DNA from: a virus | Virus record (IMG/VR): IMGVR_UViG_3300025894_000058 | Location: 1-25,994 of that record | Strand: one strand, 5' to 3' | DNA length: 25,994 nt | Shown here: positions 1-25,994 of the stretch, in pieces | Numbering within the stretch: the first letter of the stretch is position 1 | How the letters are laid out: the number at the start of each line of letters is the position of its first letter | Program-made: the position numbers and the translations under genes | Notes under the pieces: generated by a model | Database searches by the model: none | Told to the model about the DNA's origin: nothing | What the model saw: the letters and a program-made list of their open reading frames with translations, nothing else

Positions 1-14
1 AATCTGCACGACAC

Positions 15-44
15 AAGCTCTCAGCACACGCTGAGAGCTTTTTT
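15..44 (+). terminator. Rho-independent terminator at window start
   Basis: A perfect 10-bp stem (AAGCTCTCAG at 15-24, CTGAGAGCTT at 31-40) with a 6-nt loop is followed by a run of six T. It would end transcription arriving from a gene left of the window. The sequence after the T run (GTGTCT) matches what follows the other four terminators here. Confidence 0.85.
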
Positions 45-110
45 GTGTCTGGAGCGACTGAGTAGACTCGAGCAGATCTGCAGGCTCTCCTGGGGCATTC
101 TGGACGCTGC

Positions 111-187
111 TATTGACAGCTTTTGACACGTTTTGACACGTGTCAAAAGCGAAAAGGGGAGATCCATGCTTTGACAGGCTCTGTCAA
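111..187. promoter_or_regulatory. Phased TTGACA half-site cluster with palindromes (operator or iteron candidate)
   Basis: TTGACA occurs at 113, 123 and 133, exactly 10 bp apart, so the copies sit on the same face of the helix. The third joins an inverted copy to make the perfect 18-bp palindrome TTTTGACACGTGTCAAAA at 131-148. An outer inverted repeat pairs 119-130 with 139-150. A second palindrome, TTGACAG-GCT-CTGTCAA, lies at 171-187. This layout fits a dimeric repressor or activator operator, or replication iterons. TTGACA is also a -35 consensus, but no convincing -10 lies about 17 bp downstream of any copy. No binding protein was identified. Confidence 0.55.
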
Positions 188-224
188 TTTTTAATTACTA
201 GATGATCAGAGACTTAGGAGATTA

Positions 225-287
225 TTGACACGACTTTTGACATGGCTGTCATTTTTGCCGACACCTATATAGTAATGTCACTATATA
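225..287. promoter_or_regulatory. Further TGACA/TGTCA sites and an A/T-rich inverted repeat, probable early promoter area
   Basis: TTGACA recurs at 225-230 and 237-242. The second forms TGACA-TGGC-TGTCA at 238-251. An 8-bp inverted repeat, TATATAGT at 266-273 and ACTATATA at 280-287, encloses another TGTCA. The A/T-rich block just before the structured RNA at 293-345 is the likeliest -10 region for the genes at 408-1077, but I could not fix -35/-10 spacing. The stretch 188-224 shows nothing recognisable. Confidence 0.35.
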
Positions 288-292
288 TTAAT

Positions 293-345
293 AGAACGCA
301 TACGAGACATCGCCCCGCAAGGGGGCGGCTGTCTCTCCGCGTTCT
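293..345 (+). ncRNA. Three-helix extended hairpin, 5' leader or small structured RNA
   Basis: Three stacked helices can be read directly: AGAACGC (293-299) with GCGTTCT (339-345), GAGACA (304-309) with TGTCTC (330-335), and CGCCCC (311-316) with GGGGCG (322-327), closed by a 5-nt loop. Small internal loops separate the helices. There is no T run after it, so it is not a standard terminator. It begins a few bases after an A/T-rich promoter-like block and ends 62 nt before the first gene, so it may be the 5' end of that mRNA or a separate small RNA. Its function is unknown. Confidence 0.5.
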
Positions 346-407
346 GCTGTCGATGTCGTAGCTCTCTATGATTTGACTTTGAACACAAGATAATCGATCC
401 TGCGAGG

Positions 408-677
408 ATGAATGAAACCTACGAACTAACAGCACTCCGATCTATTCGGGAGATCAGCATCGCTATCCGCGATCTAGATAATCAATCGTCCGCGACTTCT
501 AAGCGATATAAGAAAGGGATTAAGATTCTGCAGGCAGAGATAGATGCTATCGAGGCGTCTCTCGATGACGGAGGAACTCTACCAGGCACAGAACCCTGGA
601 ACATCCAGAGCCAGCAGATAAAGCTACTTATCGCGGATCCTAGCCTATCGAACATCGAGGAGGATAACTCGATCTGA
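408..677 (+). CDS. Hypothetical protein, 89 aa
   Basis: Not recognised. The product is small, mostly helical in appearance and acidic at the C-terminus, with a basic patch around residues 32-40 (SKRYKKGIK). No membrane segment or Cys motif is seen. The ATG is directly preceded by GAGG, too close for a normal Shine-Dalgarno site. The stop lies one base before the next gene's ATG (679), so the two are probably co-translated. It is the first gene after the structured, operator-rich region at 1-407, so it may be regulated there. It lies upstream of the terminase genes, where lambda-type phages often carry small packaging-linked or regulatory genes, but nothing in the protein decides its role. Confidence 0.6.
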   Translation: MNETYELTALRSIREISIAIRDLDNQSSATSKRYKKGIKILQAEIDAIEASLDDGGTLPGTEPWNIQSQQIKLLIADPSLSNIEEDNSI

Positions 678-678
678 T

Positions 679-1077
679 ATGAGGACAGTAAGGATAATCG
701 AGGGGGTAGACTATCCAGGGGATAAGCCAGAGGCGTCTGCGCTTCATCACTCCCTAGCCTGCGAGATAGCCGCCAGGATACAGCAGCTCGACTCGATTAT
801 CCCTGGCGAAGGTTGTTCTCCTGCTGGGATGCGGCTGGTCCACAGACTCTCGAGCATAGCCAGGAGATCTCCCAGAGCTTATCGACTGCTGCTGGATATG
901 CTAACATCCCAGGAGAGCTTCTCGCTTTCGTTCGACGAGCTAGCATCGAGGCATAACCACTCGAGGCAGTCATGGCTTCAGAACGCACAGGCAGACGTAG
1001 AGATCGTCTCAGAGGTCTGGGCGGAGGTCGGAGCAGTCATGTCTGAGCTGATAAAGCGCAGATCGATCGATGATTAG
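679..1077 (+). CDS. Hypothetical protein with possible C-terminal helix-turn-helix, 132 aa
   Basis: Not assigned to a family. Residues about 84-105 (FDELASRHNHSRQSWLQNAQ) read like a helix-turn-helix: a helix, a short turn after the second Ala, then a Ser/Arg/Gln-rich recognition-like helix. This resembles the sigma region 4-like or resolvase-like HTH seen in small phage DNA-binding proteins. The central part (residues 44-78) is Arg-rich. It starts one base after the previous stop, so the pair looks like a two-gene unit. Its place just before terS suggests a regulator or packaging accessory, but this is inference. No Shine-Dalgarno site is seen, and initiation may rely on coupling to the upstream gene. 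Confidence 0.65.
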   Translation: MRTVRIIEGVDYPGDKPEASALHHSLACEIAARIQQLDSIIPGEGCSPAGMRLVHRLSSIARRSPRAYRLLLDMLTSQESFSLSFDELASRHNHSRQSWLQNAQADVEIVSEVWAEVGAVMSELIKRRSIDD

Positions 1078-1099
1078 CCCCCGTATTCTAGGTTCTCCC

Positions 1100-1168
1100 A
1101 TGAAAAAATCTCCTGCAAGTCGCGGGGCGTTACTCAGCGTTTTTATGAGATTCTGTCTCAAAGGCTAA
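1100..1168 (+). CDS. Possible 22-codon leader peptide upstream of terS
   Basis: An open frame starts ATGAAAAAATCTCC at 1100 and ends TAA at 1166-1168, just before the terS start at 1178. The product would be short and basic (KK, R and K at the ends). It spans most of the inverted repeats described at 1130-1176, so translating it would open or close the hairpin before terS. There is no Shine-Dalgarno site. A frame of this length can arise by chance, so confidence is low. Confidence 0.2.
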   Translation: MKKSPASRGALLSVFMRFCLKG

Positions 1169-1176
1169 CTGAGTAA
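1130..1176 (+). promoter_or_regulatory. Nested inverted repeats abutting the terS start codon
   Basis: An outer 8-bp inverted repeat, TTACTCAG (1130-1137) and CTGAGTAA (1169-1176), encloses an inner one, TGAGA (1146-1150) and TCTCA (1156-1160). The outer arm ends one base before the terS ATG. As RNA this would sequester the start region. As DNA it could be an operator or the packaging recognition site bound by the small terminase. Its position suggests control or recognition linked to terS. Confidence 0.4.
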
Positions 1177-1177
1177 A

Positions 1178-1684
1178 ATGAACAAACCAATCGCAAAAAC
1201 CTGGAAGCAGGTCGCAGAGGCTATCGGAGTCACTCAGCAGACGCTCTCGAAGTGGAGACGCGACTCGGATAACTGTCCGCAGACGAAGGACCTGGAAGCC
1301 TGGGAACTCTGGTCCGCAGAGCGAGCGATGTCGCAGGAGAGAGGAGCGGGAAGGATCGCGGTAGGCGGTCGAGAATATACTGCAGCAGATATCGCAGATC
1401 TAAAGGCGAAGCTTATCGCTGCGCAGGAGCGTCGGGAAAATGCGATGGCGCAGATTCGAGAACTAGAACTAGCGCAGAAGCGCGATAACTTAATCCCAGA
1501 GTCCGAGGCGACGGAGACTCTGATCAAACTCCTTACTCCATTACGACGGCTGCTCGATGCTCTTCCTCGCCAGGTCGCGTCACAGGCTAACCCTGCTAAC
1601 CCTAACATCGCGGAGCTTGCCATCCGCAACGGACTTGACGATCGCGTCTTTAGTGAGATAGAAAAACTTTTCCTCGGTAGGTAG
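1178..1684 (+). CDS. terS: Terminase small subunit (Nu1-like)
   Basis: Recognises phage DNA and presents it to the large terminase subunit to start packaging. Residues about 8-28 form a clear helix-turn-helix (WKQVAEAIGVTQQTLSKWRRD), as in lambda Nu1 and related small terminases. Residues 70-105 are a charged helical stretch typical of the oligomerisation core. The C-terminal third (LTPLRRLLDALPRQVA and the following LDDRVFSEIEKLF) matches the usual Nu1-family tail that contacts the large subunit. At 168 aa the length is normal (lambda Nu1 is 181 aa). The start codon has no Shine-Dalgarno site and lies directly after nested inverted repeats. The large terminase gene follows, separated by one unusual gene. 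The assignment rests on motif, length and position. Confidence 0.85.
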   Translation: MNKPIAKTWKQVAEAIGVTQQTLSKWRRDSDNCPQTKDLEAWELWSAERAMSQERGAGRIAVGGREYTAADIADLKAKLIAAQERRENAMAQIRELELAQKRDNLIPESEATETLIKLLTPLRRLLDALPRQVASQANPANPNIAELAIRNGLDDRVFSEIEKLFLGR

Positions 1685-1761
1685 TCTAGCTATTAAGATG
1701 CTAGTCGGTTTAGTCGTGTTTACCGTTTGTCCACCTACTGAGGATTTAATTTATAAAGATC

Positions 1762-2529
1762 ATGTCTGGTAATTTAAAAATCAATTCGAAGGGGTTTGAT
1801 CAAATGATTAGGACGCTTAAGCGCAAGACGGGAGCGAGCTTCTCGGATGTCGTAAAAGGTTCGGCTGGATCTATCCTGGAAGGAGCCGCTCGATTCACTT
1901 ATAAGTCTAAGGCGAAGATCATATCCGAAGCCGTAAAAGAATCTCTCTCGACTAAATTCGTATCGTCTAGAGGAGATAAGATTCGTAAGGCTAAAGACGG
2001 ATCTCTTATCTTTAAAAGGAACGGATCAGCCGCAGGACGCTGGATCCGAGTTCGAAGAGCCTACAAGCTAAACGCAGTAGGACCAAAGAATCCCGCAGGG
2101 CGTTTCCTAGGCGACGACACGCAGACCAGAATTAACAAGGCTCTCGGAGAGCTTCGTAAACTGCAGGCTAAGATAATCAAATTAAAGAAGAGCAGAATCG
2201 CCTCGTCTCAAAAGAGCTTCCTGGTAATAATGTCCAAGCTAAGGATCCCTGTTAAGAATACCAGGGGACTAGGGACAGCGATGAAATCTAAGATGACGAT
2301 TAAGCATGAGGCATCCGTATCTGGAAAGCTGTTAAAAGATAAGAAGCAGTCGGTGATCGTTATTAAGAGCAGATCACAGTCCGCGCTTAACCTTAAGTCT
2401 GGAGGGATTAACGCATTCGCTCGAGCTTTTAACGGACAGACTAAAGCCTTCGCTACGGCGGCATCTAAAGATCTAGAAGGATATGTAAAAAAATTCGCGG
2501 CACGTAATGGGTTCACTGTTAAAAAATGA
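1762..2529 (+). CDS. Lysine-rich phage protein of unknown function between terS and terL
   Basis: A 255-aa, strongly basic protein. Lys and Arg are spread along its length, with a Lys-rich segment around residues 136-145 (LQAKIIKLKKS) and many Ser residues. The N-terminal pattern (a Gly-Phe-Asp motif, then LKRKTGASFSDVVKGSAGSI) recalls small HK97 gp10-like or other head-tail completion proteins, but the match is too weak to name. There is no membrane segment or Cys cluster. It overlaps terL by 23 bp. A possible promoter, TTGTCC then 17 bp then TTTATA at 1727-1755, ends only 6 nt before the ATG and is weak. Placement between the terminase subunits is unusual. The basic character would suit contact with DNA or the acidic portal-capsid surface, but that is inference. 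Confidence 0.7.
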   Translation: MSGNLKINSKGFDQMIRTLKRKTGASFSDVVKGSAGSILEGAARFTYKSKAKIISEAVKESLSTKFVSSRGDKIRKAKDGSLIFKRNGSAAGRWIRVRRAYKLNAVGPKNPAGRFLGDDTQTRINKALGELRKLQAKIIKLKKSRIASSQKSFLVIMSKLRIPVKNTRGLGTAMKSKMTIKHEASVSGKLLKDKKQSVIVIKSRSQSALNLKSGGINAFARAFNGQTKAFATAASKDLEGYVKKFAARNGFTVKK

Positions 2530-4333
2530 AATAGGAAAGCTCTTTTCTCCCAGGAGACTGCAGCCTCCCGTAGACTGGGCGTTCGATAACTGCGTTTTAC
2601 GCGACAACGTCTCCGAGCTTCCAGGATCTCTAAAGGTTTTCCCTTATGCGCAGGAGCCGCTAAACGCTTTAATAGATCCGACGATCAGTAAGATAACTCT
2701 CTGCTGGGGATCGCAGTCGAGCAAGACGACGACGATGTATGCAGGGATCGGCTACCTGCTCTCTGAGTTCCCGAAGGACACGCTCTGGATTATGCCTAGC
2801 GCAGAGAACGCTCGCAACTTTTCGAAGGGACGATGGCTACCCTTTATCGACGACTGTAAGCCGCTAAAGGATCAATGTCCTTTGAGCGCAGCTACGGGTC
2901 GAGTCGATAGCGACAAGATAACAAACATGAGGCAGGAGTTTCTGTCATGCACTCTAACCTTCGCGGGAGCAGGGTCCGAGAATAATGTAAAGTCTGCACC
3001 TGTCGCTTACCTGGTTCTGGACGAGATCGACGAGATCGATCCAGACATTCGCCTGGCTGCTCTCGAGCGGATCAAAGGACGGCGAGAATATAAGATCATC
3101 CAGACATCGACTCCGAAGGAAGAGACAGGAGGGATCTGGGAGGAGTATCTCTACGGCGACCAGCGAACTTACTTTATGCCGTGTCCTCATTGCAAAGAGT
3201 CTATCGAGTTTACCTGGAGACAGAAAGACAAGCGAGGCGACAGTCGTTACTCGATTAAGTTCGCAGAGGAGGCTAAACTAGAGGACGGGACCTACGACTA
3301 CGATATGGTCGCATCGACTGCAGCTTATCTCTGTCCATGCTGCGACGGAGAGATTCTGGACGCCCATAAGCCGACGATGGTTAAGAGCGGAGAATGGCGA
3401 TCGAAAAATCCGAATGCTCCCGCTAATCATAGGAGCTACCATCTTAACTCTCTCTACGCTCCTGCGATGACATTCGCTACTCTAATGATTAACTGGCTGC
3501 AGGTCAGCTCCTCGATGCACGGATTAAAGAAGTTCGTCCAGGGTAACCTGGCTGAACCCTGGAAGGACGACTGGGCGAACCAGGAGCAGGCAGACGCGAA
3601 CGAACTCGAACTCGACTATCAGCGAGGAGATCTTCGCGGAGAGTATCGCGTAATGGGAGTCGATACGCAGACAGACTCTTTCTGGTATGTGGTCCGAGGA
3701 TTCGATCGCGACGGGATCAGTTATCTGATCGACTGCGGACAGGTCGCCTCATTCTCCGAGCTGGATATCACTTACGATATGCACAAATGCCACGCAGCTA
3801 TAATCGACTGCGCAGGCGACAGAACGTCTGAGATCTACGAGGAAGTATTTAAACGTCGATCTAAATGGTTCGGATCTCGAGGCTGGAAGAATCTCCAGGG
3901 AGATCAGCCTTATCGACTACAGATGAAAGATCCTTTCACGGGAGACACGAAAGGACGAGGAGGTCGATCGAAGATCCGCTACCTTCACGTTAATAAAAGC
4001 ATCTACGAGGAGGAGCTTTCTCGACTGCGCTCGAGACAGCTCTCTGGCTTCCATACTTTCACGGAGACTCCGAAGGTATACTACGACCAGCTCTTCTCTA
4101 CTTACTGGACCAGGGAGACAGACAGGAGCGGACATATCAAAGTCGTAAAGAAGCTTAAGCGCAAAAAGGGCGACCACTTATGGGACTGCGAGATCCTGGT
4201 CCGCGCTCTCTCTAAGTTTATCGGGATCGCTCGAATCGATCGAGGCAGTATGCCTACGATGCTAGACGAGCCAGCTCCGAAGAAGAAGCGAGACGCATCG
4301 ACTCGAAACAGGTCTGCGACTGGTTTCTGGTAG
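2507..4333 (+). CDS. terL: Terminase large subunit (GpA family ATPase-nuclease)
   Basis: The packaging motor: it cuts concatemeric DNA and pumps it into the prohead through the portal. Residues 68-75 (GSQSSKTT) are a variant Walker A. Residues 168-175 (YLVLDEID) are Walker B with its catalytic Glu, and QTST at 199-202 is the coupling motif. A zinc-binding insert uses CPHC (226-229) and CPCC (276-279), as in lambda gpA-type terminases. The nuclease domain starts at GVDTQTD (Asp386), has a second acidic site at IIDCAGD (Asp433), and ends with an acidic motif near the C-terminus (DHLWDCE). At 608 aa it is close to lambda gpA (641 aa). It overlaps the end of the preceding gene by 23 bp. The only nearby downstream ATG at the overlap (2526) is out of frame and stops at once, so 2507 is preferred. 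Confidence 0.95.
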   Translation: MGSLLKNEIGKLFSPRRLQPPVDWAFDNCVLRDNVSELPGSLKVFPYAQEPLNALIDPTISKITLCWGSQSSKTTTMYAGIGYLLSEFPKDTLWIMPSAENARNFSKGRWLPFIDDCKPLKDQCPLSAATGRVDSDKITNMRQEFLSCTLTFAGAGSENNVKSAPVAYLVLDEIDEIDPDIRLAALERIKGRREYKIIQTSTPKEETGGIWEEYLYGDQRTYFMPCPHCKESIEFTWRQKDKRGDSRYSIKFAEEAKLEDGTYDYDMVASTAAYLCPCCDGEILDAHKPTMVKSGEWRSKNPNAPANHRSYHLNSLYAPAMTFATLMINWLQVSSSMHGLKKFVQGNLAEPWKDDWANQEQADANELELDYQRGDLRGEYRVMGVDTQTDSFWYVVRGFDRDGISYLIDCGQVASFSELDITYDMHKCHAAIIDCAGDRTSEIYEEVFKRRSKWFGSRGWKNLQGDQPYRLQMKDPFTGDTKGRGGRSKIRYLHVNKSIYEEELSRLRSRQLSGFHTFTETPKVYYDQLFSTYWTRETDRSGHIKVVKKLKRKKGDHLWDCEILVRALSKFIGIARIDRGSMPTMLDEPAPKKKRDASTRNRSATGFW

Positions 4334-4344
4334 CGAAAATAGGC

Positions 4345-4463
4345 TCTAAAAAAAAGTTAATAAAAAGTGAAAAAAGGTATTGACGTCCTCTATTCCGTAG
4401 TTCTTTATCTGTCATATCGGAGCGATTAACGCTTCGAATCTAACCTAAAAAAAACTACACGAC
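4345..4463 (+). promoter_or_regulatory. Repeat-family promoter and leader, copy 1
   Basis: A-tracts with GTGA motifs (4345-4378) precede TTGACG at 4380-4385. The best -10 is TTTATC at 4404-4409 (18-bp spacing). Starting 8 nt later, CGGAGCG-ATTAA-CGCTTCG (4418-4436) can form a stem-loop at or near the RNA 5' end. An A-rich leader without a Shine-Dalgarno site then runs to CACGAC-ATG. The same arrangement recurs before 6242 and 11946. No terminator lies between terL and this promoter. Confidence 0.75.
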
Positions 4464-4733: not shown

Positions 4734-4739
4734 GACTAA

Positions 4740-4806
4740 CTCTCTACGGGGCAGAGCATCCTACACTCTAACTTTAATCTTCAAAACTACACGACATGAC
4801 TACTAC
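4740..4806 (+). repeat. 67-bp exact direct repeat, copy 1 (leader of next gene)
   Basis: Positions 4740-4806 are identical to 5183-5249. The repeat covers the whole spacer before a gene plus the first codons (ATGACTACTAC). It contains CTCT-ACGGGGC-AGAG (4742-4756), able to form a small hairpin, then an unstructured A/T-rich leader ending AAACTACACGAC. It lacks TTGACA, so it looks like a translation-start or RNA-processing module rather than a promoter. Confidence 0.85.
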
Positions 4807-5176
4807 AAAATCTACAATCGACAGCGACTACAAGCTCCTCACTTATTCTAACGGCGTTGAATACATCGTATATAATTCTGCCTCCTGGCTCGTCGGTGCA
4901 GACGATGAGATAGGTAACTCGCTTAAGAAAAAATACTTCCTAAAGAAAGCTACGCTCGAGCAACGCATCAAACAATGGTTCGAAAAACAGCGTTACGTCT
5001 CGACTCTAGGTCGCTCCTGCGGGAACGTAAAAAGCATAGCCGTTAAGCTCGGAGTAACTACTAACAAAATTTATTCTGTTCTGCGTAACTCAGACTGGTG
5101 CGATGTTAAGGAAAGCTACACATCTACTCGATATAACGACTGCAAAAGCTACTTCGTCTATCGCTACAACGGATAA
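4796..5176 (+). CDS. Hypothetical protein with possible HTH, 126 aa
   Basis: Not recognised. It starts MTTTKS. Residues about 77-97 (VKSIAVKLGVTTNKIYSVLR) look like a helix-turn-helix, preceded by a basic aromatic segment (QRIKQWFEKQRY). The C-terminus is Tyr-rich. This would suit a small DNA-binding regulator, but the HTH is judged by eye only. Codon choice is less biased than in the structural genes. The start is set by the 67-bp repeat, which supplies the leader and first four codons. It is the middle gene of three under the promoter at 4380. Confidence 0.6.
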   Translation: MTTTKSTIDSDYKLLTYSNGVEYIVYNSASWLVGADDEIGNSLKKKYFLKKATLEQRIKQWFEKQRYVSTLGRSCGNVKSIAVKLGVTTNKIYSVLRNSDWCDVKESYTSTRYNDCKSYFVYRYNG

Positions 5177-5182
5177 TCAATT

Positions 5183-6611: not shown

Positions 6612-6854
6612 ATGGCAGCTACTACTACTACAGCGCAGCTTATCGCGATCCGCGACAAGATGCTTATCGCTATAAATAAACTAGCGGAGGACGGAATCAC
6701 ATCCTACAGCATAGGAGACCAGACTTTCTCCCTGGCTGACGTAGGCAGCTTAATCGACCAGGTCGAAAAGCTCGACAGACTGATCGCGCTTAAGGACCGA
6801 ACCCTGGGAGCTAGAGGACAGAACAGAATATCGATCCGTAACTTTAATGGCTAA
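6612..6854 (+). CDS. gpW-like head-tail joining protein, 80 aa
   Basis: Small helical protein that in lambda (gpW, 68 aa) completes the filled head by binding below the portal. It fits by size, position between terL and portal, and pattern: an N-terminal helix (AQLIAIRDKMLIAINKLAED), a short beta-like hairpin (SYSIGDQTFSLADV), then a helix (LIDQVEKLDRLIALKDR). The ATG at 6612 is preferred over the upstream TTG at 6591, because it starts MAATTTT like the other Thr-run genes and is preceded by CTTTA, as is the portal start. It overlaps the portal ORF by 8 bp. It lies 37 nt after the terminator, with TTGACA at 6591 but no good -10. Confidence 0.75.
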   Translation: MAATTTTAQLIAIRDKMLIAINKLAEDGITSYSIGDQTFSLADVGSLIDQVEKLDRLIALKDRTLGARGQNRISIRNFNG

Positions 6855-8505
6855 CAAAACTAAAAAACCGAGCAGAGTATCCTTCGCGATAAAGCAATTC
6901 GTCCGAGCCTTTCAAGGCTATGACGCTGTCAGTAATACTCGATACAGAGCATCCAGGGGGAATACTCCCATCCGATCTGAGGAGGTCGAGCTTAATCAAT
7001 ACGATCGAGATCGACTGATCTCGACCTGTCTGGAGTTCCGTAGGAATAACCCTGTGGTCGCTTCTTTATCCAGGCTGCGTAAGGCAGACATCGTAGGCAG
7101 GGGAGTAATCCCGCAGCCTGCGACTGGAGACGACGAGACAGACTCTAGCATCCTGGAAGCCTGGAGCAAGTTCGCAGAGTCCCCAGAGGCGACGGGAACT
7201 ATGGATATGCGCGAGATGCAACAGCAGATGATCGACTCGCTGCTGTTCTACGGAGACTGCGGTCTGATCGTAGGTAAGGACCAGGTTCAATTTATTGACG
7301 GCTCCAGGATCGGAAACCCTGGCGGCTCCGTTACATCTAACGAGGAGTCGAGCTTTCAGAACGGAGTAGAGATCGATAGGATCGGAAAGCCTGTCTCTTA
7401 CTCTGTAGGTAATCGCGTATCTGGAACCCTAAGAGACATCCAGCTAATCCCAGCTCGAGACTTTATTCCATTCCTGCGCAGAGTCAGACCGACTCAGTAT
7501 CGAGGCGTCCCAGAACTGGCTCCTGTTATTAACACTCTGCAGGACTGCGACGAATACGATCGAGTCGAAATGATGGCGGCTAAGGTAAGCGCGTCTCTAG
7601 CGGTCGCAGTAAAGCGAGAGAACTCTTACGAGTTCGAACTGCAGAATCGAATGGATGGCGGCGAGCAGGACGCTCTAGGCAATCTAGAGGAGTTCCAGCC
7701 AGGACGTTTTCACTACCTAGAACCAGGAGAGGACATTAGCGTTATCGGAGCGAACGGGCGTCCGAACGTAGACGGGATCCAATGGGTAAGCTATCTCCTG
7801 CGTAAAGTAGGAAGCGCAGTAGGAATCCCGCTCGAGTTCCTGTTAATGGAGATCGGAGGAAGCTCCTTCTCTGCGAGCCAGGGGGTCGTCCTTCAATACC
7901 AGCAGACAGTCGAGAGCTATCAGTCGGATCTGATCCGAGTGATGAGTAGGCTCTATCGTCGCTGGTTATCTCAGCAAATCGCAGCAGGTAATATAAATGT
8001 CTCGGCTGCAGCTAATCCCTTCGCGGTCCGATGGCAGCGTCCAGCCTTTCGCTGGATCAATAAGTCTGCGCAAGTTAAAGCGGACATGGAATACTTCAGA
8101 GCGGGAGCCATGTCTCTCGATGACATCACTGCTCCCTTCGGATATACTGCGGAGGAGGTAATGACTCGGAAGGCACAGAACATCGTCCAGGCTAAGAAGA
8201 TCGCTAAGGAGAATAACCTGGGATCCTGGTATGATCTAGTAAATTTCTACAATACAAGCGCGAGCGCGAACTTCTCAGAGCTTACCACGCAGGAGCAGTT
8301 TAAGTCACAGAGAGAAGGAGCAGAGGAGAGCGAGGTCGTCGTAGAGCCTCTCATAACTAAGATCGGAGTCGGAGGAGTCCAAGCCATAGGCGATCTCCTA
8401 AAGAGCCTAGGAGAAGGACTGATCGACGTAGAGCAGGTAGTTACTATGCTTACCTCGATCTTCGGATTATCAGAAGAGCAGGCGAGAAAAATAGCCAATG
8501 GATAA
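6847..8505 (+). CDS. Portal protein (lambda gpB-type)
   Basis: Forms the dodecameric ring at one capsid vertex through which DNA enters and leaves. At 552 aa it matches the lambda portal family (gpB 533 aa). Recognisable parts are the N-terminal region with YDRDRLISTCLEFRRNNPVV, the wing region with RDFIPFLRRVRPTQYRGVPE, and the C-terminal stem and crown segment GGSSFSASQGVVLQYQQTVE followed by the helix with YRRWLSQQI. The start overlaps the gpW-like gene and the end overlaps the protease gene by 8 bp, so the three are translationally linked. No Shine-Dalgarno site is present. The C-terminal 80 residues are helical and acidic, as usual. Confidence 0.93.
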   Translation: MANKTKKPSRVSFAIKQFVRAFQGYDAVSNTRYRASRGNTPIRSEEVELNQYDRDRLISTCLEFRRNNPVVASLSRLRKADIVGRGVIPQPATGDDETDSSILEAWSKFAESPEATGTMDMREMQQQMIDSLLFYGDCGLIVGKDQVQFIDGSRIGNPGGSVTSNEESSFQNGVEIDRIGKPVSYSVGNRVSGTLRDIQLIPARDFIPFLRRVRPTQYRGVPELAPVINTLQDCDEYDRVEMMAAKVSASLAVAVKRENSYEFELQNRMDGGEQDALGNLEEFQPGRFHYLEPGEDISVIGANGRPNVDGIQWVSYLLRKVGSAVGIPLEFLLMEIGGSSFSASQGVVLQYQQTVESYQSDLIRVMSRLYRRWLSQQIAAGNINVSAAANPFAVRWQRPAFRWINKSAQVKADMEYFRAGAMSLDDITAPFGYTAEEVMTRKAQNIVQAKKIAKENNLGSWYDLVNFYNTSASANFSELTTQEQFKSQREGAEESEVVVEPLITKIGVGGVQAIGDLLKSLGEGLIDVEQVVTMLTSIFGLSEEQARKIANG

Positions 8506-10846: not shown

Positions 10847-11767
10847 ATGAGCTTATATACTTCAGCTACATTTAATCCAGTCCTCTCAGAGGCACTTAAC
10901 AAGATCGGCGAGAACAAATTCGTCGGAACTCAGATCCTTCCTGTTCGCGATGTCGCGACTAAGACAGGTCAGTATCCTGTATTCGGCGACGACCAGTTCG
11001 ATCTTAACGCATCGGTAGCTCGCGCTGCTGGTTCTGCATTCGCTCGTCGCGACTTCGCTTACGGGCAGCAAGACTACTCCTGCCAGCAATACGCTCTCGA
11101 GGGTCTGCTTCCAGACGAAGATCTTACTAAAGCAAGCGACGACGGCGTATCCGATTCGGCAGCAGCTATCGCTCAGAAGCTTCAGCGCGATATCATGGTA
11201 GGTCATGAGCTTCGCGTCGCAGCAGCTATCAATGGCGCAGCGTTTAACGCGACTGCTCAAACAGGCGGCGCGATGTCTGACTCGTTAGTAGCAAAGCCAA
11301 TTAGCTCGATCCAGAACGCAGTAGAGCGTCTCAACGGAAACGGCTTCTATGATAGCCTCGCTCTTATTATCGAGACTTCTCTCTTTAACGAGATGATTAA
11401 CACTCTCGACGTTCGCGAGATCTTTAACGGAAATGGTCAATACACCAATCGCCAGGTCATCCTCGACGCTCTCGGTGTTAATCAAATCATCCTCTGCCCA
11501 ACTCGCTACAACAGCGCAGCAAAGGGTAAGGCAGCAGCTCGCACTAAGATCTGGTCCGACTCGACTTACTTCGTAGGTCAAGTAGGCGGCGGCGACTTCG
11601 CTAACGGCGGCTTCGGTCGGACTCTCGCTTACACTCCAGACGGAGGCGTATTCAGCGCAGAGTCTTATCGCGACGAGCCTATTAAGAGCGATGTCCTGCG
11701 CGTCTTCAATAGCGTAGACGAGGCGATCATTAACACCAACGCCTGCGAAAAGATTACAGCAGCGTAG
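10847..11767 (+). CDS. Major capsid protein (HK97 fold, gpE-like)
   Basis: The shell-forming protein. At 306 aa it is shorter than lambda gpE (341 aa) but in range for HK97-fold capsids. It follows protease/scaffold and decoration genes and is followed by a strong terminator. Typical parts are an N-terminal arm (FNPVLSEALNKIGENKFVGT), a middle helix with DSAAAIAQKLQRDIMVGHEL corresponding to the spine helix, a segment rich in N/G with TLDVREIFNGNGQYTN, and a final P-domain strand. It ends AESYRDEPIKSDVLRVFNSV, similar to other capsid proteins of this group. Strong codon bias and an A/T-rich leader with no Shine-Dalgarno site suggest very high expression. Confidence 0.88.
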   Translation: MSLYTSATFNPVLSEALNKIGENKFVGTQILPVRDVATKTGQYPVFGDDQFDLNASVARAAGSAFARRDFAYGQQDYSCQQYALEGLLPDEDLTKASDDGVSDSAAAIAQKLQRDIMVGHELRVAAAINGAAFNATAQTGGAMSDSLVAKPISSIQNAVERLNGNGFYDSLALIIETSLFNEMINTLDVREIFNGNGQYTNRQVILDALGVNQIILCPTRYNSAAKGKAAARTKIWSDSTYFVGQVGGGDFANGGFGRTLAYTPDGGVFSAESYRDEPIKSDVLRVFNSVDEAIINTNACEKITAA

Positions 11768-13774: not shown

Positions 13775-14383
13775 ATGCAATTAAAGGCGGTCAGTTTTGA
13801 CGATGCCGCCAGGGATCGCATCGCAGACGCCGCAGCCTTTGAAAAGAGGCTGCGGCTCGAAGCTGTTATCGGAGTAGACCAGGAGGTCGCCTGCTTTAAG
13901 TTAAGGCAGATAACCGTAAGGGATCTGATCAATCTAGAGTTCTCAGAGAACAGGCTGGTCTCTGGAGAGATGCCAGGTCTAGACGATCTCCTGGCGTTCG
14001 TCTTCATGCTGTCCAGCGATCGATATTTCTTCAAGAAGAGATACGCCAGGAAGATAGGTAAGATCCTAAAGGATCATGAAACGGTAAGAGAGGAAATCAT
14101 CTGCTACTTCCATGCAGCCTTTAATGATACGCCGTCATTCGGATCGTCGAACGCAGTAGAAAATGAGTTCGACAGCTCGGTATCTACCATGTCGCTCGTA
14201 GATAGCCTAGCATCTAATTATAGCTGGAGCCTGGACTCGGTATTAGATCTACCTCTATCGACGGCTCTACAGCTATTACAGCGCATTACACAGCGCAATC
14301 TAGGCGAGAAGTATTCTCTCCGCAATGGCATAACCCAGAAGGCGAAAGCCGCCGAACTGAAAAGACTAAACGAAGATGGCTAA
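13775..14383 (+). CDS. Probable tail assembly chaperone, 202 aa
   Basis: Proteins of this place hold the tape measure protein while the tube polymerises around it. The product is mainly helical, has no membrane segment, and lies directly between tube and tape measure genes. Parts seen are a helix with FDDAARDRIADAAAFEKR, a strand-like segment VACFKLRQITVRDLINLEF typical of chaperones of this class, then helices ending TQRNLGEKYSLRNG. Its end overlaps the tape measure start by 8 bp. The usual programmed frameshift product (lambda G/GT) was looked for at the overlap. No clear slippery heptamer is visible, so a single product is assumed. Confidence 0.6.
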   Translation: MQLKAVSFDDAARDRIADAAAFEKRLRLEAVIGVDQEVACFKLRQITVRDLINLEFSENRLVSGEMPGLDDLLAFVFMLSSDRYFFKKRYARKIGKILKDHETVREEIICYFHAAFNDTPSFGSSNAVENEFDSSVSTMSLVDSLASNYSWSLDSVLDLPLSTALQLLQRITQRNLGEKYSLRNGITQKAKAAELKRLNEDG

Positions 14384-16241
14384 TTTCTCACTACTCGCTA
14401 AAATAGGAATCGACTCGAAAGCTCTACAGACTGGTCTCGCGAAGGCAGAAGGTAGGGTAGGAAAGTTTAAGGCTGCTGTCGCAGCGATCGGACCAGCTAT
14501 CGCAGCGATCGGCTTTACTGCGATGGCTAGAAAAGCGATCGACCTGGGATCTAAAATTAGCGATCTCAGCGAGCAGCTACGAATAAATGCAGAGTCGCTC
14601 CAGGTTCTTATGGCGGTCGCTGCTAAGGCAGGCGTCGCACAGGGAACTCTAGAGAAAGCGTTAATGGCTATAACCATTCGGACGCAGGAGGCGATGGATG
14701 GTAACAAGCTATACGCTGATTCATTCGATCGCCTGGGGATAAATCTAGCAGAGTTCGCACAGCTCCCTACAGAGAAGAAACTAGAAGCGATAGCTAAAGC
14801 CTATAATGCTGCAGGGAAATCCCAGGAGGCGTTCGCTGACATCGCAGCAATTCTAGGAACTAGAGCTGGTCCTAAGATGCTCGAGGTCTTACGACGCATG
14901 AACGACGAGGGACTGCCTAGCTTGACGGAACAGATGAAAAAGGCTGGGCAGGTAATGGATAACGACGTCATAAAGAAGATGGATGAAGCCGCAGACACGA
15001 TCGGAATCTTCACGAATGGAATGACAGTAGCGACGGCTTATGTCCTTAGCTATGTTATTCCAGCATTCGTTATCTTTAGAGAAACCTTCGGACATTTAGG
15101 AGACGCTATGGTCAGCCTATCTATAAAGCTAAGTTCGTTCCTTACATTCTTAGGATCGGGGTTAATGTCTACATTAGATCCTGCGATAAAGGCATTCGAG
15201 GCGTTCGGACTTTCTATAAAAGCAGCAGGACAAGCGGCTAGCGGAGACTTCTCTGGAGCTAAAAAATCTATCGAAGAAGCTAAGGAAGCAGCAAGTTCTG
15301 CAGGTAAAGAACTGCTGAATATACCAAAGGAAATCTCTGCGGCTTATAGCAAAGCAGACGCAGAGATGAAGTCGGTTAATCAGTTAATGGAGATAGACTC
15401 GAAGGAACGTAATAAGAAAATTAAGGACGGCTTCGCAGATCTATTCGGATATGCAGTAGACGAGAGTAAGAAGGCAGGAGAAGATATAGATGAAAACCTG
15501 GCGGGAGGAGACGGCGGCGATGATCCATCTGTATCTGGAAAGATTCTAAAAATGGAGGAAAAGATAAAAGCTCTAAAGCTAGAATCTATTCGCGCACAGG
15601 CAAGCGGAGACAAGGCAGCGCAGGAATCATTAGATCATAGAATTAAGATATCCGAGAAAGCGGTAAAATTAATGAAGGACTATAATCTTTCCCAGGAAGA
15701 AGCTATCGCTCTAGCGGAGAGACTAGCGGACGAGTCGGATCCAGACGAAGGAAAGGAAAAGAAGTTCGAGGAACTCGAGAAGAAGATTAACGAGATGAAG
15801 CTTAAAGCGATCCGCGCACAGGCGAACGGAGAAAAGGAAGCGCAGAAAGCGATGGAGCGTCGAGCTGAATTAGCCCAGAAGATCCTGGACCTAATGAAGC
15901 AGTATAACATCTCCCAGGAGGAAGCGACTCTCCTGGCTAATAAGACTGCAGAGGCAGAAGATAAAGCAGAAGATAGTGAAGCTAAGAGTTCTCTAACTGG
16001 AAAAGACCTAAAGAAGGCATCTAACATAGCAGGAAAAGGTAAAGGAGAAAACGGAGAAGACATACGATTCGATCGTCTAGCTGGAGGCGGCTTCCAGCAG
16101 TTCGTCGGAGGGAAGAAGGGACGCAAGTTCACAGAGGCAGAGATGCAAGCAGGTTTACAAAAGCAGATTGATAAGGATCCCTCCGAAGCTTTACTCGAAA
16201 AAATCAATCAAACCTTAGAGGGCAAATTTGTTTCTCAATAA
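14376..16241 (+). CDS. Tape measure protein, 621 aa
   Basis: Sets tail length and may be ejected with DNA. It begins with an Ala-rich helical segment (ALQTGLAKAEGRVGKFKAAV and a following IGPAIAAIGFTAMAR) typical of tape measures, has a hydrophobic stretch around residues 213-265 that could span a membrane, and a long charged helical second half. Two tandem modules of about 65 residues (388-452 and 465-527) share KIKALKLESIRAQA-like and YNLSQEEA-like blocks. From length, the tail would be short to medium for a siphophage, roughly 90 nm at 1.5 angstrom per residue. It is the longest gene of the tail assembly group, and its start overlaps the chaperone gene. Confidence 0.85.
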   Translation: MANFSLLAKIGIDSKALQTGLAKAEGRVGKFKAAVAAIGPAIAAIGFTAMARKAIDLGSKISDLSEQLRINAESLQVLMAVAAKAGVAQGTLEKALMAITIRTQEAMDGNKLYADSFDRLGINLAEFAQLPTEKKLEAIAKAYNAAGKSQEAFADIAAILGTRAGPKMLEVLRRMNDEGLPSLTEQMKKAGQVMDNDVIKKMDEAADTIGIFTNGMTVATAYVLSYVIPAFVIFRETFGHLGDAMVSLSIKLSSFLTFLGSGLMSTLDPAIKAFEAFGLSIKAAGQAASGDFSGAKKSIEEAKEAASSAGKELLNIPKEISAAYSKADAEMKSVNQLMEIDSKERNKKIKDGFADLFGYAVDESKKAGEDIDENLAGGDGGDDPSVSGKILKMEEKIKALKLESIRAQASGDKAAQESLDHRIKISEKAVKLMKDYNLSQEEAIALAERLADESDPDEGKEKKFEELEKKINEMKLKAIRAQANGEKEAQKAMERRAELAQKILDLMKQYNISQEEATLLANKTAEAEDKAEDSEAKSSLTGKDLKKASNIAGKGKGENGEDIRFDRLAGGGFQQFVGGKKGRKFTEAEMQAGLQKQIDKDPSEALLEKINQTLEGKFVSQ

Positions 16242-20074: not shown

Positions 20075-20117
20075 CGCAGATTTGACAGAAGCGAACATCC
20101 TATCTTTATTTTCTCCC

Positions 20118-21134
20118 ATGAAGATCGCCACTGTCATAGTCGCTACAAAGTCCTATCTCGATCCGCTCGAAGTCTGCCTGCGCAGAACTAGGACGGCTAT
20201 CGATAACGAGATCTCAGAGTTCGAGCATAGGCTGATCGTTGTAACGGATAAGTCTAGTAAGAGTCTAGTCGATAAAATGGCTGCAGACTTCGAGGATCGC
20301 GAGATTATCGCGATCGAGATGGAGGAGAGCGGAGAACACTATAAGAAGGATAGACAGATACTTATCGCTTCTCTTCAGTCTACAGGATTCGACGCTGCTC
20401 GTCGCTGGGGCTGCGACTTTCTCTGGAGCGTCGAAGCGGATGTCCTCGTTCCTCATAACGCTCTATCTGTCTCTCTAGATATGCTACGCTTCGACAGAGG
20501 CTACTACGATGTCGCTTTCGTCACTTACCCTTCGCAGGGAGGAGGAAGCTTTCTAGGCGGCTACGGAAGCTATCGTCATCCGATCGCGGAGGACTATCTA
20601 CCAGAGGAGAGGACTCTTCCTAGTAAGCTAAAGCTACTACTAGATCGATGCGAGGAGAGGTTAAACGATAAGGATATCGAGCGAGAGTCTATCGAGAAGG
20701 AGCAGAAGAGGATGGGAAGGATCCTCGAGTTAATTAAGAAGTGTCCTCCTAGCGGCAACGTCTTCGAGCTTAACGCTAAGAAATGGCGGCGTCGAGGCTG
20801 GCTCGATAATAGTCACGTCGGAACGGGGAGAGGAGCCGTTATCGAGACGGACTGGACTGGTCTCGGCTGCACTCTAATGAGCAAGACAGCAGCGAATCTA
20901 GCGCACTTCGACGGATACGACGGAGGAGGAACGCAAGATCTATATCTTAACTGGCATAAGTGGCATCCAGAAGGACTCCGCTTCTGTTGTATTACGCATA
21001 CAGTCTGCGATCACGTAGTAAGAGACGACAAGGCAGAAGGAGGACTCACTACTCTAAAGAGTTACCACGAACCAGAGGGAGAGACTAAAGGGCATCTGCG
21101 CTATCGCAGGGTTCCATTCCATAAATTTATATGA
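20118..21134 (+). CDS. Glycosyltransferase-like protein, 338 aa
   Basis: Likely transfers a sugar from a nucleotide donor. The N-terminus KIATVIVATKSYLDPLEVCL, followed by HRLIVVTDKSS, is a GT-A type Rossmann-like beginning. FLWSVEADVLVPHNAL holds an acidic EAD where a DxD metal site is expected. A later GGGTQDLYLNWHKW, followed by His residues (CITHTVCDHVV), resembles the acceptor and catalytic end of family-2-like enzymes. No signal peptide or membrane anchor is seen. The ATG at 20118 is chosen over an upstream in-frame TTG (20082). Next to it, overlapping by 4 bp, is a nucleotide-sugar dehydratase/epimerase gene, so the two probably act in one pathway. Substrate and exact family are not known. 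Confidence 0.7.
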   Translation: MKIATVIVATKSYLDPLEVCLRRTRTAIDNEISEFEHRLIVVTDKSSKSLVDKMAADFEDREIIAIEMEESGEHYKKDRQILIASLQSTGFDAARRWGCDFLWSVEADVLVPHNALSVSLDMLRFDRGYYDVAFVTYPSQGGGSFLGGYGSYRHPIAEDYLPEERTLPSKLKLLLDRCEERLNDKDIERESIEKEQKRMGRILELIKKCPPSGNVFELNAKKWRRRGWLDNSHVGTGRGAVIETDWTGLGCTLMSKTAANLAHFDGYDGGGTQDLYLNWHKWHPEGLRFCCITHTVCDHVVRDDKAEGGLTTLKSYHEPEGETKGHLRYRRVPFHKFI

Positions 21135-22114
21135 AAAGAATACTAATAACAGGCAGCGCAGGCTTCGTCGGATCTCATACGGCTAAATGGATCCTGGAGA
21201 ATACAGAATGGGAAGTCGTCGGACTCGACTCCTTTAGACACATGGGAGACGCAGAGCGGATCTCTGCGGATCCTCGATACTCGATGATCTGTCACGATCT
21301 AAACGCTCCTATCTCGAAGCGAACTGCGACTCGTATCGGAGACATCGACTACATTATTAACTGCGCGTCTATCTCTCACGTAGACACATCGATCGAGGAT
21401 CCCGTCCATGTCTGGGAATCGAATACCAGGCTAATCGGGAACATCCTACAGTATGCTCGCGAGCTTCCTGGTCTAGATAAGTTTATTCACTGCTCTACGG
21501 ATGAAGTTTTCGGCTCCGCATACGGCGACCATTGTCATCACGAATGGGACGTTATCGCTCCTTCTAATCCCTACGCAGCATCGAAGGCAGCGCAGGACGC
21601 TCTCTGCTTCGCTTACTGGAGAACCTACGGAACGCCGATCGCCATAACGCACTGTATGAATATGATCGGAACGATGCAGGACGCAGAGAAGTATCTTCCT
21701 AAGATCGTCTCCAGGGTCCATAAGGGGGAGACAGTTACTGTCCACGGTCAGCCAGATAAAGTAGGATCGAGGATGTATATCGACTGTAGGAATCTAGCGG
21801 ACGCCTGGCTCTTCATGCTCCAGGAGATCGACTTCGCGACCTACGGGGAAGAAGATCGCATGACTAAATTTAACATCGCAGGAATCGAAGAGATAACGAA
21901 CCTGGAACTAGCGCAGAGGATAGCAGATCGAATGGGGGAGGAGCTTAGATACGAGTTCGTAGACTTCCACAAGACGAGAGCAGGACACGATCTACGCTAT
22001 GCTCTAGATAGCAGCAAGATCTACGCTGCAGGATGGAAGCCTCCTATCGACCTCGATCAGACCTTCGACCAGGTTATCGAACACGTCCGAAAGCATGAAG
22101 CCTGGCAGGAGTAA
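21131..22114 (+). CDS. NAD-dependent epimerase/dehydratase, dTDP-glucose 4,6-dehydratase-like
   Basis: Extended short-chain dehydrogenase fold acting on nucleotide sugars in the cytoplasm. The nucleotide-binding motif GSAGFVGS is at residues 8-15. SHVDTSI at 82-88, CSTDEVFG at 121-128 (Thr, Asp and Glu of the dehydratase active site), the YAASK motif at 148-152 (Tyr148, Lys152) and RAGHDLRYALDSSKI near the C-terminus all match the RmlB/dTDP-glucose dehydratase group better than plain epimerases. At 327 aa the length is normal (E. coli RmlB about 360). It overlaps the glycosyltransferase-like gene (ATGA), implying coupled expression. A 6-deoxy-sugar precursor is the likely product, but the sugar nucleotide used cannot be told. 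Confidence 0.88.
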   Translation: MKRILITGSAGFVGSHTAKWILENTEWEVVGLDSFRHMGDAERISADPRYSMICHDLNAPISKRTATRIGDIDYIINCASISHVDTSIEDPVHVWESNTRLIGNILQYARELPGLDKFIHCSTDEVFGSAYGDHCHHEWDVIAPSNPYAASKAAQDALCFAYWRTYGTPIAITHCMNMIGTMQDAEKYLPKIVSRVHKGETVTVHGQPDKVGSRMYIDCRNLADAWLFMLQEIDFATYGEEDRMTKFNIAGIEEITNLELAQRIADRMGEELRYEFVDFHKTRAGHDLRYALDSSKIYAAGWKPPIDLDQTFDQVIEHVRKHEAWQE

Positions 22115-22136
22115 CTTGACAATAGAGTTATTTTAA

Positions 22137-23960: not shown

Positions 23961-23961
23961 T

Positions 23962-24279
23962 ATGGAAAACAAAATCTTACATCTAAAAGACTCAGTCTGG
24001 ATGCTATCGCAGCCAAGTCCAATGCCTCAAGAGCTAAAGGATTTGATACACGATGAGAATGCTGACGAGCAGGAAAAGCTCACGGCAATTACTGCTTGGA
24101 AAGCTAGTCAATATTCTACACCAGACGCAGCAGACGCAGAAGCGGCACAAGCAATTTACGACGAAAAGAAAATGGAGGGTAACAACCTTATTTCCGCAAC
24201 AGTCTTTCTTCCTAGTGGCAATGGCATTATCAATTGTCGCCAGCCAGAAACACTTGAACACTGCCAGATCCGCTTTTAA
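23962..24279 (+). CDS. Small gene linked to the receptor-binding protein, chaperone candidate, 105 aa
   Basis: Not recognised by family. The ATG comes one base after the fibre stop, and the stop (TAA) abuts the next ATG. It starts with beta-like KILHLKDSVWMLSQPSPMPQ, then a helical part (TAITAWKASQY) and an Ala/Glu/Asp-rich helix (DAADAEAAQAIYDEKK). Base composition is like the exchanged end of the fibre gene rather than the following gene. Fibre genes are commonly followed by a small fibre-folding chaperone that moves with the fibre tip, and this gene fits that position. The function is therefore inferred from place and shared composition, not from motifs. Confidence 0.5.
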   Translation: MENKILHLKDSVWMLSQPSPMPQELKDLIHDENADEQEKLTAITAWKASQYSTPDAADAEAAQAIYDEKKMEGNNLISATVFLPSGNGIINCRQPETLEHCQIRF

Positions 24280-24819
24280 ATGAAGCGCGGGAATAACTAC
24301 ATCATCTTCGGAGATAAGCAGATCGCTATGATCGGTAAAAGCGGATCGTCCGCTATCGCTAAGGCTATCTACATCGACGGCAGAGACGATGTCTCGGAGG
24401 TAATGCTTCTCTCTAATGCTCCAGGCTTCCAGAATCGAGTTCCGCAGACGCAGGAAGCTAACTGTCCGATCATACCCGTAAGAGATCCAGTCGAGCGATT
24501 TAGATCTGCCTGCGCACAGGAGGATAGAACAGCAGCGCAGGAGATCAGTAGGATAGAGAGGAATCGTTATAGCTTTCATACTAAACCCACGAGCGCATAC
24601 CTAGTCGAAGGAGCTACTCTATATAAGTTCCCAGAGCATATTAAAGAGATAGCGAGAGATCTAGGTCTCGATGAGATCGCTAGAGTAAACGACTCTAATA
24701 GTAACAACAGCCCAAAGCCTATCTTAACAGACGATGAGATAAAGAGAGTCGAGGAACTTTACGCAGACGATATAAGTCTATATAACTCTATAGAAAACGC
24801 AGGACAGATTTACTGCTAG
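24280..24819 (+). CDS. Sulfotransferase-like protein, 179 aa
   Basis: Resembles a short P-loop-type sulfotransferase, which moves sulfate from PAPS to a sugar or other hydroxyl. MIGKSGSSAIAKAIY at residues 17-31 is placed like the 5'-phosphosulfate loop (the usual T/K-x-x-G/S-T/S pattern, here with GSS). IIPVRDPVERFRSAC at 64-78 matches the 3'-phosphate-binding motif (RDP-xxRF-xS) well. The C-terminus LTDDEIKRVEELYADDISLYN is the common carbohydrate sulfotransferase ending with the Y-x-D-D/LYN pattern. At 179 aa it is shorter than most family members (about 220-300), so part of the acceptor domain may be missing. Codons match typical phage genes here. It lies beside the fibre gene. Confidence 0.65.
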   Translation: MKRGNNYIIFGDKQIAMIGKSGSSAIAKAIYIDGRDDVSEVMLLSNAPGFQNRVPQTQEANCPIIPVRDPVERFRSACAQEDRTAAQEISRIERNRYSFHTKPTSAYLVEGATLYKFPEHIKEIARDLGLDEIARVNDSNSNNSPKPILTDDEIKRVEELYADDISLYNSIENAGQIYC

Positions 24820-24827
24820 AACTTACC

Positions 24828-24992
24828 ATGAACGAGCAACTTATCGAACACTTTAAAATCTGGGGGACTCTAGGAGTCGCTCAGATGACAGCATCCATCT
24901 CTAGCGCGAATGATCTAGCAAGCATCTTCGCTCTTCTCTGCGGGGGATTAGCATCTCTCGCGATCGCATGGTGGCACATATTTAAAAAATAA
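24828..24992 (+). CDS. Small membrane protein, holin or antiholin candidate, 54 aa
   Basis: A short frame starting ATGAACGAGC and ending TAA at 24990-24992. It encodes an amphipathic start (MNEQLIEHFKIWGTLG), a possible weak membrane segment in the middle, and one clear membrane span, IFALLCGGLASLAIAWWHIF, ending in Lys-Lys. One membrane span plus a basic tail fits a small holin or antiholin. It lies 8 bp after the sulfotransferase-like gene and 3 bp before the next membrane protein. The pair suggests a two-component lysis function. No endolysin gene is visible in the window. Confidence 0.6.
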   Translation: MNEQLIEHFKIWGTLGVAQMTASISSANDLASIFALLCGGLASLAIAWWHIFKK

Positions 24993-24995
24993 ATT

Positions 24996-25391
24996 ATGAC
25001 TCCAGAACTACTAGCAATGCTCGGAGGCGGCGTAAGCGGCTTCGTAATGAAGATGATAGCAGCGCAGGCAGATAGCCAGGCTCGACTATTCGAGCGCATG
25101 ATCGCCAGGCAGACTGTAGCGGATGATTCTGCGGACCGAGCAGCAGCTCGAGGCGGGATTTATATGCGTCGCTTTATTACTGCTGCAGTTATATTCGCTA
25201 TCGTCCTCGCTCCGTTCGTGTTCGCTTTTACGGATATCGGAGTCAGCGTCCAGAGAGAGACTCATGGAGTCTTCGGATTCTTTAAGGCTGTAAAATGGGA
25301 CACGATCCAAGGGTTCGTCATCTTGCCAGAAATTCGCCAGACGGCTCTAGCGATCGTCGGCTTTTACTTCGGATCCTCGCAGGTCAAATAG
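24996..25391 (+). CDS. Membrane protein, holin-like (3-TM type), 131 aa
   Basis: Expected to make lesions in the inner membrane at lysis. Three hydrophobic segments are seen: residues about 4-22 (ELLAMLGGGVSGFVMKMIAA, weak), about 60-78 (FITAAVIFAIVLAPFVFAF) and about 113-128 (ALAIVGFYFGSS). A charged helix lies between the first two (RLFERMIARQTVADDSADRA). The ending VGFYFGSSQVK is typical of the phage 3TM holin family I know from T7-like and marine phages. It follows a 54-aa membrane protein. A role in membrane superinfection or lysis timing is possible, but holin is the best fit. Confidence 0.7.
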   Translation: MTPELLAMLGGGVSGFVMKMIAAQADSQARLFERMIARQTVADDSADRAAARGGIYMRRFITAAVIFAIVLAPFVFAFTDIGVSVQRETHGVFGFFKAVKWDTIQGFVILPEIRQTALAIVGFYFGSSQVK

Positions 25392-25449
25392 GAGGAGAGA
25401 GAGCTAAAGATCGGCTGCTCTAAACGTCGATCGAAACAGTAAAAAAAAT

Positions 25450-25994
25450 ATGACTCCTTCGCAACAGCTCGCCGTAGACGTATATCTAGAAGCAGGATCT
25501 TATCGCAAGGCTGCTAAAATCTTAGGACAGAACGAATCGACAGTCCGCAATAAGATAAAGCGGCTAGAGAAACTAGGGAAGGTTCCCTGGGGATCTCCTG
25601 CTCCTAGTCCGAATCATTTAGCAGTAAAGAGTTCGACCGTCCAGTATAACGGAAAAGGCGAGGTTATCCAGGAATGGCGGCGGCAGTTTCCGACTCTCGA
25701 GCTAATGCAGGACGTCGTAGACGGACTCTGCGAGCAGGTGAAGGGTAAAGGGAAGGTCTCGAAGTTTAAAGCCGCTAAGAACACAGGAGAGGACATTCTC
25801 TACGAGATCGATCTCTTCGATGCTCACGTAGGAATGTATGCGGACGAGACGGAGACGCTCGATAGCGACTATAACTGCGACATCGCAGCGCAGCGCATGG
25901 TCGAAGCTACAGAGGCTCTAGCTAGTCGAGCGAATAAGCCTGGTAAATGCGTCCTAGTCTTCGGAGGAGATATGCTGCACGTAGATAATAGGAG
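25450..25994 (+). CDS. HTH plus metallophosphoesterase-like protein, 3' truncated by window end
   Basis: The first 181 codons are visible. Residues 17-43 form a helix-turn-helix (SYRKAAKILGQNESTVRNKI). After a linker, the chain reads EIDLFDAHVGM (Asp121, Asp124, His126) and later VFGGDMLHVDN (Asp174, His177), the first two metal-binding motifs of calcineurin-like phosphoesterases (DxH and GDxxH). Similar HTH-phosphoesterase fusions occur in other tailed phages, where the role is not settled. The ATG at 25450 follows an eight-A run and a 58-bp gap after the holin-like gene, with no Shine-Dalgarno site next to the start. The remaining catalytic motifs (GNH and GHxH) would lie beyond the window. 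Confidence 0.8.
   Translation, partial: MTPSQQLAVDVYLEAGSYRKAAKILGQNESTVRNKIKRLEKLGKVPWGSPAPSPNHLAVKSSTVQYNGKGEVIQEWRRQFPTLELMQDVVDGLCEQVKGKGKVSKFKAAKNTGEDILYEIDLFDAHVGMYADETETLDSDYNCDIAAQRMVEATEALASRANKPGKCVLVFGGDMLHVDNR

Follow-up and report, generated by a model that had tools for sequence, protein, structure and literature searches.

Complete loss of GGCC, CCGG and GTAC from a tailed-phage contig and different sets of lost sites in its close relatives, consistent with host restriction

Three palindromic tetranucleotides, GGCC, CCGG and GTAC, are completely absent from a 25,994-base virus contig (the window, that is, the whole stretch of DNA analysed here), and Type II restriction by the host or hosts very probably drove their loss. 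An exact computer count gave zero for each, which bore out the absence reported in a first-pass annotation made from the sequence alone. That annotation had expected about a hundred copies of each site, a figure 1.5- to 3-fold too high because it ignored the trinucleotide make-up of the sequence. With a maximal-order Markov model based on trinucleotides, the expected numbers were 30.2 (GGCC), 30.0 (CCGG) and 60.0 (GTAC), so zero is not the expectation of such a model, and no other tetranucleotide of the window fell under an observed/expected ratio of about 0.4. We also performed 1000 synonymous-codon shuffles of the 22,836 coding bases, keeping proteins and codon use fixed. The shuffled sequences contained on average 35.6 +/- 5.1 GGCC, 35.5 +/- 4.8 CCGG and 65.6 +/- 6.5 GTAC, with minima over the 1000 shuffles of 22, 22 and 45, respectively. 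If elimination is defined as an observed/expected ratio under 0.1 for one or more Type II palindromes with adequate expectation, all three sites were eliminated (0/30, 0/30 and 0/60). Total loss of 4-bp words was confined to palindromes that are Type II sites, with GCGC, CGCG, GATC and TCGA retained. As the annotation had also stated, several other palindromes were frequent (GATC 257, TCGA 292, CTAG 120, AGCT 170, CGCG 84).

The losses extended beyond these three sites. Using second-order Markov expectations, longer Type II-like sites were missing (observed/expected: GAGCTC 0/16, GTCGAC 0/13, CAGCTG 0/12) or nearly so (AGCGCT 1/13), and the degenerate Type II-like sites GWGCWC (0/26), GDGCHC (1/35) and GTYRAC (2/21) followed the same trend. 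One non-palindromic sequence, CCTGA/TCAGG, was found only 3 times in the window versus 46 in the codon null; it was also nearly gone from two relatives (2 in G002, 1 in G004), and its scarcity would point to an enzyme of Type IIS, IIG or III. Other sequences were in excess: CCWGG was overrepresented (100 vs 43 expected, 2.3-fold), and GATC (231 vs 140), TCGA (256 vs 179) and TTAA (120 vs 68) strongly exceeded the codon null.

The window corresponds to the part of a tailed-phage genome that holds the packaging, head and tail genes. It carries both a terminase large subunit and a portal protein, which places it in the Caudoviricetes. The features used below are as follows.
408 to 677, plus strand: small conserved gene (89 aa) matching positions 4771-5040 of relative G001, at the downstream edge of an exchangeable DNA-modification slot
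679 to 1077, plus strand: gene for a 132-aa protein, upstream of the terminase small subunit gene, with 43% identity over 70 aa in a syntenic element of the Verrucomicrobiota genome G202
1178 to 1684, plus strand: terminase small subunit (TerS; PHROG 57, E 1.3e-14)
2507 to 4333, plus strand: terminase large subunit (TerL), annotated from matches to 430 phage records and used as the marker for relatives
6847 to 8505, plus strand: portal protein of the lambda family (PF05136, E 1e-54; PHROG 21)
10847 to 11767, plus strand: probable major capsid protein, assigned from its position, with no matching Pfam family
14376 to 16241, plus strand: probable tape-measure protein, assigned from its length and position, with no family match
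21131 to 22114, plus strand: NAD-dependent epimerase/dehydratase, a sugar-nucleotide epimerase (PF01370, E 3.3e-42)

A search of a viral-contig collection with TerL recovered 109 relatives. Megablast of the window found no phage record close at the DNA level, the probable capsid protein had no match in phage databases, and TerL, portal, primase and epimerase had only distant, taxonomically mixed matches there. The family is uncultured and probably marine, as its IMG sample numbers presumably point to marine sources. Complete genomes in this family would be about 37 kb long, because relative G006 (36,974 bases) begins and ends in one gene.

Relatives with 75-92% identical terminases have different sets of lost sites, an aspect that the first-pass annotation did not include. 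The near-identical contigs L001 to L005 all share the triple loss, save one CCGG in L003. The clade of G003, G004 and G012, with TerL about 91-92% identical, is devoid of GGCC, GTAC, CCWGG and GGWCC and contains CCGG as often as expected or more often (observed/expected 73/57, 65/43 and 36/29, respectively). In the clade of G006, G024 and G025, GGCC is retained (23/28, 9/10 and 9/11) and CCGG and GTAC are lost. Relative G010 lost GGCC, CCGG and GCGC (0/68) and kept most of its GTAC sites (75/107); G013 and G014 are without GGCC, GCGC, GCNGC and GGWCC; and G009 lost no site. On the TerL tree, parsimony required a minimum of 4 changes for GGCC, 6 for CCGG, 3 for GTAC, 3 for CCWGG, 5 for GGWCC and 3 for GCGC. 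At least two 4-bp palindromes were lost in 13 of 16 family contigs versus 6 of 45 unrelated viral contigs, the latter (each at least 10 kb) being a biased sample since they were fetched for a methyltransferase. One unrelated contig, L203, had six palindromes nearly gone (AGCT 0/60, CATG 0/45, CGCG 0/48, CTAG 0/21, GCGC 1/42, GGCC 0/45). The high-GC relatives G021 and G022 (L055, L059) lacked GTAC and many 6-bp palindromes, among them CCGCGG, TGCGCA, GTCGAC and CGGCCG. CCWGG was about 4-fold enriched in G013 and G014 (L053, 122/29, and L044, 123/29), while the G003 clade had none (0/36). Such enrichment might stem from Dcm/Vsr-like repair by the host.

DNA-modification genes, also missing from the earlier picture, were found in several relatives, as expected if restriction matters. 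They occupy a slot flanked by the primase-helicase gene and by the small genes that precede the terminase, and the gene content of this slot varies among relatives; some relatives have additional methyltransferases outside it. The window starts just downstream of the slot, its own slot lying outside the contig, and no methyltransferase was recognised among the proteins examined from this incomplete genome. In relative G001, which has 95.5% nucleotide identity to the window, the stretch that the window lacks encodes an N6/N4 methyltransferase, and enzymes of this type were also found in G003 and G027. A C5 methyltransferase is present in G006 and G031, with M.HaeIII second among its PDB matches (94 bits) after 8yf3. 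The C-terminal motif region of the G006 enzyme (L091:14374-15774) is doubled, at about residues 281-347 and 395-466, and may confer two specificities. A C5 methyltransferase together with a PAPS-reductase/SspD-like protein was found in G030, G032 and L132, the methyltransferase call in G030 being based only on overlapping-frame similarity to G032. In L126 (12063-13414), L129 (3581-4946) and L132 (1490-2855), the slot holds a PAPS-reductase/SspD-like gene, a small nuclease-like gene and a C5 methyltransferase gene, a set that could be a DNA phosphorothioation-like module. Finally, G010 encodes a Tet_JBP protein and a TET-associated glycosyltransferase (TAGT), and G026 a TAGT. The Tet_JBP and TAGT genes of G010 (L095:17856-19369) adjoin genes for two ParB-like proteins, and comparable ParB pairs were observed in G007, G008 and G011.

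Main-clade genomes with a C5 methyltransferase retained GGCC fully or partly (23/28, 8/11, 26/34, 6/18 and 5/14), whereas those without one (G001, G003, G027, G026, G010 and G008) had 0 to 2 GGCC, a comparison drawn from only about a dozen contigs that include the slot. Retention of GGCC thus goes with the C5 methyltransferase in the main clade, an association that is suggestive only, the contigs being few and related and the specificity of the enzymes for GGCC putative. Relative G009 retained GGCC without a C5 methyltransferase, as expected under no pressure. A rule in which each retained site corresponds to the specificity of a phage methyltransferase fits GGCC with the C5 enzymes of G006 and G031 and fails for CCGG, which is retained in G003 and G027 with unrelated N6/N4 methyltransferases. 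The modification genes of relatives may nevertheless substitute for site loss. Tentatively, and with more doubt than confidence, we propose that each lineage is in one of two states with respect to a site: it has purged the site from its whole genome, or it protects the site by a modification gene in the slot. Lineages would then swap between these states over short evolutionary distances, and the lost set and the slot together might reflect the restriction arsenal of uncultured hosts, a reading to which we give the same guarded weight.

The phage or a co-infecting element could instead encode site-specific nucleases directed against host DNA, the phage being immune for having no sites. Precisely such a total absence would be required of an element that carries a nuclease and no methyltransferase, and some relatives have in their cargo slot a small nuclease-like gene (L126, 12063-12524), recognised by eye and with no Pfam match, that might be taken as a candidate. 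We consider this very unlikely: searches with Pfam and PADLOC found no Type II nuclease family among 33 proteins of the window and its relatives, the PD-(D/E)XK match corresponded to a Cas4/RecB-like exonuclease rather than a Type II nuclease, and a phage nuclease alone would leave the frequent changes of the lost set beside stable core genes unexplained. A Type IV route, in which sites modified by solitary host methyltransferases are cut by a modification-dependent nuclease, would select against exactly these sites and is inseparable from ordinary Type II restriction by sequence alone. However, it takes two components per site, and the main-clade carriers of a C5 methyltransferase retain GGCC, the opposite of 5mC-dependent selection if that enzyme methylates GGCC; its probability is accordingly small.

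How the sites were destroyed was analysed with codon alignments of the window and its relatives, at orthologous places where the relative carries the site. None of the CCGG places of G003 (26), G004 (45) and G012 (20) was retained in the window, whereas 16-57% of the control palindromes of the same three relatives (CGCG, GCGC, GATC, TCGA, AGCT and CTAG) were. Single changes that destroyed CCGG affected position 2 (C>T, C>A, C>G), position 3 (G>A, G>T, G>C) and also positions 1 and 4, so that transitions and transversions together reached every position of the site, and GTAC losses affected all four positions. Of the losses, roughly half to two thirds were silent at the protein level. A similar pattern of loss was observed in the window for the places of G009 (16 CCGG, 6 GGCC, 8 GTAC) and for the 10 GGCC of G006. 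So many different substitutions at orthologous places are the signature of selection against the site itself rather than of one mutational process. Erasure without restriction, by deamination of methylated cytosines or very-short-patch repair, could draw on the excess of CCWGG in the window as a hint of Dcm/Vsr-like host repair and on the C>T changes at position 2 and G>A changes at position 3 of CCGG. The C>A, C>G, G>T and G>C changes at several positions and the hits at all four positions of GTAC led us to reject such processes as the main cause, and mutation bias should spare some sites instead of leaving 0 of 30-66; we regard this explanation as extremely improbable. An artefact of composition or codon usage can be dismissed as having next to no probability: the trinucleotides within GGCC, CCGG and GTAC are scarce here, which makes the naive hundred too high, but codon-preserving shuffles still yield 36, 36 and 66 sites and relatives of equal composition retain CCGG or GGCC at normal frequency.

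Restriction selection, as the first-pass annotation had proposed, is the best-supported explanation of a loss that is total, specific to palindromes, independent of codon use, produced by varied substitutions and different in its set of sites from one close relative to another. The lineage would have met, again and again, hosts whose Type II enzymes cut GGCC, CCGG, GTAC and several longer sites, GDGCHC and GTYRAC among them. Any such site in incoming unmodified phage DNA would have been a cleavage risk, and because each one risked cleavage, site-destroying mutations, mostly synonymous or conservative, would have been favoured until zero sites were left. In relatives, part of the same problem may have been solved by phage methyltransferases or TET/glycosyltransferase-type genes in one variable slot. 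Here we infer both the nuclease as the agent and Verrucomicrobiota as the hosts. Two observations run against this explanation. G003 and G027 have no methyltransferase in common and yet retain CCGG, so that retention in these two requires a lack of restriction pressure. The non-palindromic CCTGA/TCAGG is depleted too, though non-Type II sites are seldom avoided according to a published survey (PMC6286503).

Candidate hosts were searched with TerL. One scan of GTDB genomes with a TerL alignment gave its top matches in two Verrucomicrobia assemblies. With a TerL profile, scores peaked at 455 and 429 bits among 388 Verrucomicrobiota genomes and 461 bits in a sample of one order, versus 215 bits, for a partial match, among 389 genomes of the phylum of a Minwuia genome (Pseudomonadota). 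In two Verrucomicrobiota genomes, G202 and G881, the genes near the terminase follow the same order as in the window, at a TerL identity of 30-33%. In the first 20 kb of G881 contig 48, GATC (0/56) and CATG (0/38) were absent and GGCC was rare (4/93). The probable capsid protein had no match in the first two Verrucomicrobia genomes. These similarities make Verrucomicrobiota the somewhat favoured host phylum for this phage, 30-33% TerL identity being too distant for proof, and a phage contig may be misplaced because some of the Verrucomicrobiota genomes are metagenome bins. The first-pass annotation had predicted HaeIII-, HpaII- and RsaI-like activities in the hosts, and the search covered the first two. 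Nucleases of the HaeIII family were found in 4 of 279 and of the HpaII family in 10 of 279 genomes of Verrucomicrobiota, a candidate phylum rather than a proven host. A metaepigenome study covering Verrucomicrobia (PMC6329791) lists different motifs for these bacteria.

That phages eliminate sites has long been known, and the window is a striking new example rather than a new kind. The less usual aspect is the sharpness and frequency with which the lost set switches among close relatives that also carry exchangeable modification genes. Classic cases of avoidance are the scarcity of GATC in T7 and in staphylococcal phage K. The systematic survey of restriction-site avoidance by Rusinov et al. 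(2018; PMC6286503), which appears to deal with complete genomes of phages with known hosts, reports that phages facing orthodox Type II systems eliminate sites, completely or nearly so in about one-tenth of viral genomes. As in the cases of that survey, orthodox Type II palindromes were eliminated here, with lost and kept sites side by side. Compared with those cases (PMC6286503), the window differs in that three 4-bp sites and several 6-bp families were lost together in an uncultured lineage, and in that the set switches among phages with 75-92% identical terminases.

Our literature search found no report on such a marine pattern or on TET-associated phages. Bacillus phages SPR, phi3T and H2 encode multispecific C5 methyltransferases. 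Relatives G006 and G031 likewise encode a C5 methyltransferase and retain GGCC, although the specificity of their enzyme is putative and the known part of the window phage has no such gene. The TET/JBP oxygenase and TAGT genes associated with hypermodification occur in relatives only (G010 and G026), and G010 lost GGCC, CCGG and GCGC despite these genes.

Uncultured marine phages account for a large share of viral sequence databases, yet for the most part little is known of their hosts or of the defences that they encounter. Since the sets of relatives differ, each genome records the enzymes that its lineage had to survive, so that lost sites provide a lineage-resolved record of past restriction pressure, in which near relatives serve as natural controls. 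Should lost sites and phage-carried modification genes prove to be coupled, methyltransferase specificity and the restriction repertoire of the hosts would be predictable from phage composition alone.
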